A stretch of 64,000 nt of DNA from Candidatus Sulfurimonas marisnigri (GTDB lineage Bacteria > Campylobacterota > Campylobacteria > Campylobacterales > Sulfurimonadaceae). Where the stretch lies: contig NZ_CP054493.1 in the NCBI RefSeq assembly GCF_015265475.1, positions 806,001 to 870,000 of the forward strand, in the 5' to 3' direction. The translations under genes were made by a program, and so were the position numbers. Below, piece after piece: positions 45,544 through 48,249 of the stretch (positions within the stretch are counted from its first letter, which is position 1; each line of letters begins with the position of its first letter). The notes under the pieces are model-generated. The model was given only the letters and a program-made list of their open reading frames with translations, did no database searches and had not been told where the DNA came from.

Positions 45544-46743
45544 ATGTATAAAGAGATTGAGCTAACTGTAAAACCCGAATATATTGATGAATACAAAGAT
45601 GGATACCCACTGATTTGTAAAGAGTCTATTGCAGATTTGAGTAGATTGACAAAAGAGGGGACAATAGTAAATCTAATGGACAGTAAAAAAAAGTTCATTG
45701 CTAAAGGTTACTACGGTATTCAAAACAAGGGTTACGGTTGGGTACTCTCGTCAAACAAAGATGAACAAATAGATGCAGAGTACTTTGCAAAGAGAATAAA
45801 ATCTGCCATAGAGTACAGAGAAGAGTTTTTTAACGACAAAGAGACGACGGCGTTTAGGGTTTTTAACGGCGAGGGTGACGGAGTAGGCGGTTTGACCATA
45901 GACTATTTTGATGGTTTTTATATGGTAACATGGTACAGCATTGGTATATATGAACTTAAAGATGAGGTTTTAAAAGCGCTTAAATCTTCAGTAGAGTACA
46001 AGGGGATGTACCAAAAGAAAAGGTTTGACGCAAAAGGTCAGTACTTGGACGATGCGGATGATTTTGTTTGCGGAACTAAAGCGGATGCTCCCATCATAGT
46101 AAAAGAAAACGGTGTAAATTTTGCCATCTACTTGGACGATGGACCAATGGTCGGCGTGTTTTTGGACCAAAGAGAAGTGCGAAAAACAATACGTGACAAA
46201 TACGCAAAAGGAAAAACAGTTCTTAATACCTTCTCGTACACGGGGGCATTTTCAGTTTTTGCAGCTCTTGGCGGTTCGAGCAAAACTACAAGCGTTGACT
46301 TGGCAAACAGAAGCCGCAGTAAAACAGAAGAACACTTTAGTATAAACGGCATACATGTAGAGAGTCAAGAGATTATAGTTGAAGATGTCTTTAACTACTT
46401 CAAGTATGCCGTAAAAAAGAACTTATTGTTTGATTTGGTAGTGCTTGACCCGCCTAGTTTTGCAAGGTCTAAAAAAGTTACATTCTCTGTAGCAAAAGAC
46501 TATGTAAAACTTCTTAAAGAGGCTATACAGATAACAAACAGAGGCGGTGTCATAGTCGCCTCTACAAACTACGCCAACTTTGGGATGATGACGTTTAGAG
46601 ACTTTATATTTAAAGCATTTAAAGAGCTTGGTGGGAAATACACAGTTGAAGAGAGTTTCACTCTGCCAAAAGATTTCAGGGTTGCAGAGAAGTTCAAAGA
46701 GGGAGATTACCTTAAAGTGGTGTTTATTAAAAAGGTTAAGTAA
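45544..46743 (+). CDS. RlmI-like rRNA cytosine methyltransferase
   Basis: 399 residues. An N-terminal PUA domain (to about 75) is followed by an EEHEA-like middle and a SAM-binding domain: MVGVFLDQREVRKTIRDK, NTFSYTGAFSVFAAL, VDLANRSRSKTEEHF and LVVLDPPSFARSKK. This is the RlmI/YccW family (5-methylcytosine in 23S rRNA); the exact target is inferred. It abuts the HAD gene, whose TTG start follows the stop directly. Confidence 0.85.
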   Translation: MYKEIELTVKPEYIDEYKDGYPLICKESIADLSRLTKEGTIVNLMDSKKKFIAKGYYGIQNKGYGWVLSSNKDEQIDAEYFAKRIKSAIEYREEFFNDKETTAFRVFNGEGDGVGGLTIDYFDGFYMVTWYSIGIYELKDEVLKALKSSVEYKGMYQKKRFDAKGQYLDDADDFVCGTKADAPIIVKENGVNFAIYLDDGPMVGVFLDQREVRKTIRDKYAKGKTVLNTFSYTGAFSVFAALGGSSKTTSVDLANRSRSKTEEHFSINGIHVESQEIIVEDVFNYFKYAVKKNLLFDLVVLDPPSFARSKKVTFSVAKDYVKLLKEAIQITNRGGVIVASTNYANFGMMTFRDFIFKAFKELGGKYTVEESFTLPKDFRVAEKFKEGDYLKVVFIKKVK

Positions 46744-47388
46744 TTGAAAAAGTATCTTCTATTTGACAATGACGGCGTTTTAGTTGAGACTGAACAATGG
46801 TACTACGAAGCAAATAAAAAATCTTTAAATGAGATAGATGTAGAACTTCCGTTTGATGTCTATATGGAGATAATGGCAAGAGGTGGGACAGCATGGGAAG
46901 TGGCAAAGAAGCATGGACACACTCAAAAAACAGTTGATGAGCAGAGAAGACGAAGAGATATCTACTACCGAGAGTTTATCTCATCTGAGCATATAGAGAT
47001 AGATGGTGTAGTTGATGTTCTTGAAGAGTTGTCCAAAGAGTACAGTTTTGGGATAGTAACTACTTCAAGAAGAGTTGATTTTGACCTGATACACTCACAA
47101 AGAGAGATAGTAAAGTATATGGATTTTACACTCTGTGTTGAAGAGTATCCCCGTGCTAAGCCACATGCGGACCCATATCTTGCAGGTATGAAAAAGTTTA
47201 ACGCTCTAAAAGATGAGTGTTTAGTAATAGAAGACTCACAAAGAGGGCTTAGTTCGGCTGTAAATGCAGGGATAGATTGCGCAGTCGTAGAGAATACATT
47301 TACAGCTTCTCATGACTTCAGCAGTGCAACTTACAAGATTAAAACACTAAGAGAGTTGCCAACACTGCTCAAATCGTTGAAGCGGTAA
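46744..47388 (+). CDS. HAD-family phosphatase
   Basis: 214 residues. LFDNDGVLVETE near the start is motif I (nucleophile D8, acid D10), VTTSRRVD holds the motif II threonine, KPHADPYLAGM the motif III lysine, and IEDSQRGLSSAVNAG motif IV. The architecture fits phosphoglycolate phosphatase/beta-phosphoglucomutase-type HADs. The start is TTG at 46744, immediately after the RlmI-like stop. Substrate unknown. Confidence 0.83.
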   Translation: MKKYLLFDNDGVLVETEQWYYEANKKSLNEIDVELPFDVYMEIMARGGTAWEVAKKHGHTQKTVDEQRRRRDIYYREFISSEHIEIDGVVDVLEELSKEYSFGIVTTSRRVDFDLIHSQREIVKYMDFTLCVEEYPRAKPHADPYLAGMKKFNALKDECLVIEDSQRGLSSAVNAGIDCAVVENTFTASHDFSSATYKIKTLRELPTLLKSLKR

Positions 47389-47429
47389 AAATCAGCTATA
47401 ATTCGCTCAAATATTAAGGAAATAACTAC

Positions 47430-48068
47430 ATGTCAGAAGAGAAAACTAAAAAACCTAGCAAAAAAAAATACTATGACAATGTAAGTGTCGGAAAACGCAC
47501 TAAACAAGTAGCTTATTTAGTAGAAGATGGTGACAAAGCTTCTATGTTTGAGTACTTTATTAAAAACAGTGACAAGAAACAGAGTATCGTTGTTGCAAGA
47601 AGTAAACGCAGAGCAGATGAGCTCAAGGAATATCTAAAAACTAAAGATATTTCAGCTGCTTCAATTCATGGAAATCACAGAGTCGAGCAGCACGAAGAGG
47701 CAGCTAAATCCTTTAACTCAGGTGAATTAAATATCCTTATAACTACCGATATGATTTTGCAAACCTTAGAGTTAAACAATATACAAACTATCCTAAACTA
47801 TGACCTTCCTCCACAGCATGAGGACTATTTTAATCGCCTTATTCTTGTTGACGGAGTAGGGGAATCTATCTGTTTTGTCTCTCCCGAAGAAGAGGGACTG
47901 TTAAGCATTTTAGAGTTGAGGTTGAAAAATGAAATGCCACAAGAAGAGCTAGAAGGCTTCACTCCAGAAGTATCTGATGAGGTAGCTCACGTTGTTAAAG
48001 ATAAGAAAAAGAAACCTCGTCACCGCTCACAGGTTGTAAAAAAAGTTAAAAAGAAAAAAGCGGAGTAG
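47430..48068 (+). CDS. Stand-alone helicase C-terminal (RecA2-like) domain protein
   Basis: 212 residues equal to the second half of a DEAD-box RNA helicase. Motif IV-V features are seen: SIVVARSKRRADELKEYL, SIHGNHRVEQHEEAAKSFNS, NILITTDMILQTLELNNI and ILNYDLPPQHEDYF. Motif VI (HRIGRTGR) is replaced by NRLILVDGVGES. The ATPase half, with Walker A and DEAD, is absent, and upstream DNA holds no remnant of it. A very basic tail (KKKKPRHRSQVVKKVKKKK) suggests RNA or ribosome binding. ATPase activity is not expected. Confidence 0.78.
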   Translation: MSEEKTKKPSKKKYYDNVSVGKRTKQVAYLVEDGDKASMFEYFIKNSDKKQSIVVARSKRRADELKEYLKTKDISAASIHGNHRVEQHEEAAKSFNSGELNILITTDMILQTLELNNIQTILNYDLPPQHEDYFNRLILVDGVGESICFVSPEEEGLLSILELRLKNEMPQEELEGFTPEVSDEVAHVVKDKKKKPRHRSQVVKKVKKKKAE

Positions 48069-48249
48069 GGCTTAGAAGTTTCTATATATAACGATTTCAA
48101 GAGCAAATATATTTTATAAGACTCTAAGTACTGCTGACAATTTTATCAATATGACATGGTTTTAAAGTATCTAAAACTTTTTCTTTATCACGTTCAAATT
48201 TATAACAAACTTCACGATTGTTTTGAACACTCTTAGAATAATAATAAGA

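Follow-up and report, generated by a model that had tools for sequence, protein, structure and literature searches.

DEAD-box RNA helicases of the RhlE/CshA type are the described proteins that most resemble the one reported here, a stand-alone degenerate RecA2 protein that we call SA. They share the RecA2 fold with SA at approximately 25–33% identity over that half, whereas SA lacks RecA1 and motif VI, has a degenerate motif V, and carries a tail and N-terminal signatures of its own. Few cofactors of DEAD-box proteins are, to our knowledge, known in bacteria. Among DEAD-box pseudohelicases, the closest precedent is Utp25 of the yeast small-subunit processome (PMC9539457), which resembles SA in combining a dead DEAD-box-like fold with a non-ATPase role, but is eukaryotic and contains two RecA-like domains, whereas SA is bacterial and contains one. 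The same paper notes that DEAD-box helicases by themselves show little specificity for RNA. The job suggested below for SA, that of a trans-acting modulator of a bacterial DEAD-box ATPase, is performed by RraA (PMC3814787); RraA, however, is not a helicase domain, whereas SA is itself a RecA2. In a further paper, four to five helicases are given for free-living members with larger genomes, together with three partial sequences that are called annotation errors. The literature on stand-alone or isolated RecA2 proteins, on degenerate helicases and on this DEAD-box group contained no description of the SA family among the matches listed. We regard the family as a variant of the known pseudohelicase kind, and its association with one particular helicase as a new observation.

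The window, that is, the whole 64,000-nt stretch of Candidatus Sulfurimonas marisnigri DNA that was analysed, encodes SA on the forward strand at 47430..48068. The gene starts with ATG, specifies 212 amino acids plus a stop, and has a Shine–Dalgarno-like AAGGA, read directly from the letters, 9 nt 5' of the ATG (47416..47420, forward strand). Helicase_C was the sole Pfam match above cut-off (residues 36–134, 60 bits versus 23.5, E 3e-16), and the DEAD/RecA1 domain that holds motifs Q, I and II was absent from the Pfam matches. The best NCBIfam matches were RhlE-type RNA helicases, covered in their C-terminal part alone, and the best PDB sequence matches were the RecA2 regions of Vasa, DDX53 and DDX3X. 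The AlphaFold model has low confidence (mean pLDDT 56; approximately 74–83 over residues 51–110), because the alignment behind it held four sequences only. Weak as it is, the model still finds its best matches among solved DEAD-box RecA2 domains, where single-domain entries reach target TM-scores of about 0.7. The Pfam, PDB and model matches together delimit a RecA2 core at 47502..47960 (forward strand, residues 25–177) with the DEAD-box RecA2 fold; SA is thus one half of such a helicase, the second. It falls outside the Utp25 family: only the C-terminal domain model (Utp25_C) gives a match, which at 20.9 bits (E 3e-4) stays below the curated threshold of 32.8, and there is no evidence of shared descent with Utp25 beyond the common superfamily.

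The conserved motifs were compared between 25 of the 34 SA sequences and 41 full-length helicase rows. Departures were found in QxxR and in motifs V and VI, which have ATP and RNA contact roles in DEAD-box proteins. The glutamine of QxxR (47682..47693, forward strand, residues 85–88) occurs in 1/25 SA rows versus 40/41 full-length rows, and its arginine, which contacts RNA in DEAD-box proteins, in none versus all 41. Motif V of the window protein, ITTDMILQTLEL (47739..47774, forward strand, residues 104–115), reads TDMILQTLEL in place of TDIAARGLDI and departs from the TDxxARGxD consensus. Its first two residues are retained (Thr106 in 25/25 and Asp107 in 23/25 SA rows), the alanine is missing from all 25, Arg111 and Gly112 are each found in 0/25 versus 41/41, and the second aspartate (position 114) in 1/25 versus 39/41. 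At the position of motif VI, YFNRLILVDGVG (47826..47861, forward strand, residues 133–144), HRIGRTGR is replaced by NRLILVDG: the histidine (135) and the two later arginines (139 and 142) occur in 0/25 SA rows and in 41/41 full-length rows each, so that the arginine fingers of HRxGRxGR are gone. The first arginine (136) is kept in 22 of the 25 rows and the first glycine (138) in four, and an alignment gap shows the loop to be three residues shorter than in full-length helicases. The core residues of the RecA2 fold are, by contrast with these losses, kept in the 25 SA rows. A helicase fold from which the catalytic motifs have gone is one mark of a pseudohelicase, and SA has this constitution; the residues through which ATP and RNA are coupled are missing from its sequence. 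The initial annotation of the locus had described a lone RecA2-like domain without the ATPase half, with motif VI replaced, that cannot act as a DEAD-box helicase. These statements hold, since motifs required for ATP-driven activity are missing; the degeneration of motif V was absent from that description.

The SA proteins have also acquired motifs of their own. A 29-row alignment, which leaves out L012 at a contig edge, the interrupted L037, and L041, whose contig is that of L011, reveals an N-terminal family signature, KKYYDNVSVGKRTKQ in the window (47463..47507, forward strand, residues 12–26), in which Lys12, Asp16, Arg23 and Gln26 are invariant. Of these, Gln26 is common in full-length helicases too, while Asp16 (25/25 SA rows versus 6/41) and Arg23 (25/25 versus 3/41) are characteristic of SA, as are Tyr14 (22/25 versus 0/41; Tyr or Phe in 25/25), Ser19 (23/25 versus 2/41) and Thr24 (24/25 versus 0/41). 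Asp35, also new, is present in all 25 rows. At the opposite end, a basic tail claimed from the first inspection is borne out: residues 185–212 contain 13 lysines and arginines versus two aspartates and glutamates. The tail includes a KKPRH motif (48009..48023, forward strand, residues 194–198), of which Lys195, Arg197 and His198 are invariant over the 29 rows. In the wider table, His198 occurs in 24/25 SA rows versus 0/41 full-length rows and Pro196 in 23/25 SA rows; the motif deviates to KKPRN in G332 and to KKPQR in G340, two genomes from other families.

A search of the taxonomic family of the window recovered SA homologues of approximately 190–250 residues, all without RecA1, in 29/121 genomes at E 1e-34 or better, and full-length helicases ranked after them, from E 1e-26 down. 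The distribution is patchy even within the genus, where 12 of the 35 sampled genomes carry SA. Across the order it was found in 8/298 genomes, three of them from other families (G332, G334 and G340), and the profile search separated SA members, with at least 256 bits, from the best full helicase at 142. Draws of 397 genomes from the class and 377 from the phylum, which overlap with the genomes drawn earlier for the family and the order, gave 14 SA proteins each, the same 14 and none new. Named records with close homologues were Sulfurimonas. The plasmid and phage searches with SA returned 33 and 20 records, respectively, all below 60% identity, with the best 15 of the 33 and the best 10 of the 20 at approximately 24–34%.

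Twenty-seven of the 29 copies in the family are complete. The two others are the SA of G097, truncated where its contig stops, and that of G006 (L037 / L069), which has two internal stops and is the sole interrupted copy. Eight close pairs gave dN/dS values of 0.08–0.23 (Nei–Gojobori), several of the pairs being near saturation at synonymous sites. These values show purifying selection, which maintains SA as a distinct family with novel motifs at both termini; together with the 29 stand-alone copies they place the observation far beyond chance. The conserved stand-alone family for which the initial annotation suggested a search is thus present. Of a function that persists without catalysis, the second mark of a pseudohelicase, this selection is the sign observed. 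The idea that the window gene is a pseudogene, a truncation or an assembly error, under which the initial annotation would have fallen, can draw on the interrupted copy of G006, one in 29, but is refuted by the 27 complete stand-alone homologues, the dN/dS of the eight pairs and the window genome being a single contig. It is also very improbable that SA belongs to a split helicase, completed by a separate protein that consists of RecA1. SA does contain RecA2 only, as this would demand; however, 16 of the 17 PF00270 matches in the genome lie in frames of at least 426 residues, the remaining one is an 89-residue frame that reads like a UvrB fragment, and SA has lost the arginine fingers on which ATP hydrolysis depends.

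In a tree of 66 RecA2 domains, 25 SA rows formed one clade (100/100), separate from the full-length rows included, and the long branches blur which full-length helicase is its nearest relative. The SA proteins of G332 and G334 group with those of the window's family, a placement suggestive of inter-family transfer. Full-length DEAD-box helicases of one orthologous group, here called H5, recur in the flanks of SA genes; members of the group, like the copy in the window's genome, end in a KGKGKSKKDK-type tail. An origin of SA by recent truncation of H5 is unsupported, as the SA clade lies outside the H5 clade of the same tree.

The distribution of H5 (presence threshold E 1e-110 or better) reveals a marked association with SA. 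H5 occurs in 71/121 genomes of the family: in 28/29 of those with SA versus 43/92 of those without (Fisher 6e-7). The sole exception, G055, is 89% complete in approximately 420 contigs. Within the genus the figures are 12/12 SA genomes versus 9/23 others (Fisher 6e-4), and across the order H5 is present in 60/298 genomes and in 8/8 with SA, so that the three SA genomes outside the window's family carry it as well. H5 does not need SA, because 43 genomes of the family carry it alone. The two genes are sometimes neighbours. In G011, H5 lies 30 nt upstream of SA; the distance is 1.3 kb in G053, G058 and G063, 2.8 kb in G046, and 6.7 kb in G340, which belongs to another family. The two genes are thus within 7 kb in 6/31 genomes, which come from a second family as well as from three genera of the window's own, three of the six being from one genus (g16). 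They share a contig in 12/31 genomes, at least 135 kb apart in six of these, and lie on different contigs in 19/31. In the window's genome H5 is encoded at 1,269,584–1,270,816, 416 kb from SA. SA is therefore found almost only where H5 is present, as the statistics show, with the genes adjacent in some genomes.

Shared ancestry was taken into account with a Pagel-type test on a midpoint-rooted, single-gene (RhlE) tree of 46 genomes, which is without G013, a carrier of both genes. On this tree there are at least 14 changes in SA and 11 in H5. Making the gain and loss of SA depend on H5 gives a better model than independence (LRT 20.3, 2 df, p 4e-5), as is full dependence (LRT 21.5, 4 df, p 2.5e-4), some rates of these models being at their bounds. 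The conservative independent-pairs test is not significant in either direction, because the median p is 0.125 (a mean of 3.6/8 pairs agree, 4.3/8 when reversed, and none are opposed). Two other patchy genes served as controls in the same model: a DUF389 neighbour gave p 0.17, and an RNase-T-like exonuclease, present in 15/29 SA versus 23/92 non-SA genomes, gave p 0.01. The association of SA with H5 is stronger than with either. RhlE (L004; 103/121 genomes, some matches being paralogues) and DbpA (L003; 41/46 genomes) are housekeeping helicases, nearly universal and for this reason uninformative as presence controls; they were used as divergence controls instead.

The divergence of SA was compared with that of H5 in 15 genomes with both genes, among them G097 with its cut copy. 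The distances of SA and H5 correlate (r 0.43, permutation p 0.001), those of SA and RhlE (r 0.29, p 0.03) and of SA and DbpA (r 0.29, p 0.04) less so. With RhlE and DbpA held constant, SA and H5 retain a partial correlation of 0.45 (p 0.0007); for the 12 genomes of the genus the value is 0.37 (p 0.005), and there H5 also follows DbpA (r 0.58).

The presence of SA almost only in genomes with H5 and its maintenance by selection indicate that it is probably a helper of H5 and not a broken gene. The reading that we favour, at a probability of about 40%, is that SA is a single-domain pseudohelicase that serves H5 as an accessory protein and binds RNA independently of ATP. Its preserved RecA2 fold and its lysine- and arginine-rich KPRH tail would attach to structured RNA, most likely ribosomal RNA or its precursors, and SA would deliver this RNA to H5, or steady H5 on its substrate, while H5 would supply the ATPase. 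The initial annotation had proposed a new role in RNA or ribosome binding, perhaps as partner or inhibitor of a full helicase, and as a whole it is partly supported: the partnership is favoured, indirectly, by the co-occurrence with H5, by the nearness of the genes in six genomes and by their shared divergence. A comparably tentative but further-reaching reading is that these proteins may form a bacterial family of single-domain pseudohelicases, each a trans-acting cofactor dedicated to a single DEAD-box helicase, with the basic-tailed RecA2 giving its partner specificity for RNA or the ribosome and spreading between lineages only where that partner is already present. If so, nature would have found in a conserved, dead RecA2 that accompanies one helicase a simple route to a cofactor derived from the enzyme itself, and SA would provide a clean bacterial case of what a RecA2 domain does once it is freed from ATP.

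The same features could be read the opposite way, with SA as a competitive inhibitor or buffer of H5 that sits on the RNA, or binds to the RecA1 domain of H5 and keeps it open. The loss of the later arginines of motif VI from all 25 rows, with the core of the fold kept, is consistent with such a role, and the unrelated RraA binds the RecA2 of SrmB and lowers its ATPase (PMC3814787). Against inhibition, H5 is common whereas SA is patchy, and the single locus with SA 30 nt after H5 fits a cofactor equally well; we consider inhibition unlikely.

Other neighbours of SA bear on whether the link to H5 is specific. A HAD-type phosphatase gene (46744..47388, forward strand) ends 41 nt upstream of SA in the window, in the same direction, and a HAD phosphatase likewise adjoins SA in L039. 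Two genes upstream of SA lies an RlmI-like 23S rRNA cytosine methyltransferase (45544..46743, forward strand), assigned below curated cut-offs, and the same gene cluster directly precedes SA in L049 and L055. Annotation of about 25 chosen neighbours revealed further genes that are close to SA and co-directional with it, namely an RlmI-like gene (G083 and G077), EF-P (G101), Tex (G053) and an ABC-F ATPase (G119), and the RNase-T-like exonuclease adjoins SA in the same direction in G103, G025, G007, G035 and G049. Genes for RNA and translation thus recur beside SA in an informal tally with no formal background, a recurrence in line with the favoured reading. The recurrence of ABC-F counts for little, because the two typed copies are of different subfamilies (Uup-like in G119, nearer to PRK10636 in G035). 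These loci leave room for SA to be an RNA- or ribosome-binding accessory in its own right, whose link to H5 mirrors a similar ecology of genomes rich in accessory RNA genes: several have translation or RNA neighbours other than H5, and the patchy exonuclease is itself associated with SA. This account is possible, but less probable than an accessory of H5; under the same model the p value for H5 (4e-5) is far below those for the exonuclease and DUF389, and chromosomal closeness and shared divergence also point to H5.

The neighbours of SA are not conserved across genera, and some are unrelated (a citrate transporter, a glycosyltransferase, abhydrolases and a GmrSD nuclease), which weighs against the favoured reading. 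Neighbours that vary in this way, some of them metabolic, together with the loss of the QxxR arginine from all 25 rows, could indicate that the RecA2 domain was recruited for a non-RNA job, such as a protein–protein scaffold. We consider this more doubtful still than inhibition, as the basic tail is conserved, the Thr-Asp pair of motif V is kept and the association is with an RNA helicase.

Several minor features were noted around these loci. The exonuclease gene, which encodes a 174-residue RNase-T/DnaQ-like protein (L042:5893–6417 and relatives), stands directly behind SA in five genomes with gaps of −4 to 6 nt, and is found in 38/121 genomes of the family at 65–89% identity to the query copy. 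It had appeared to be an obligate partner of SA when all four carriers among the 46 genomes had SA, but the wider search, with 23 carriers among the 92 non-SA genomes, led us to reject this. In G332, a GmrSD-type restriction nuclease gene (L168:177–2252) follows 63 nt after SA. Just downstream of SA in the window, a 266-residue open reading frame at 48223–49023 matches nothing in Pfam or NCBIfam at E values of up to 1; it contains AGSCLKADTFRDLDMF, which resembles the GS...DxD motif of nucleotidyltransferases. Finally, a short orphan fragment, VSYYDYYQPEAY, lies at L228:1501–1683 (G000:C1, approximately 2,016,961–2,017,182) and, recognised from its letters, is presumably the start of a UvrB.
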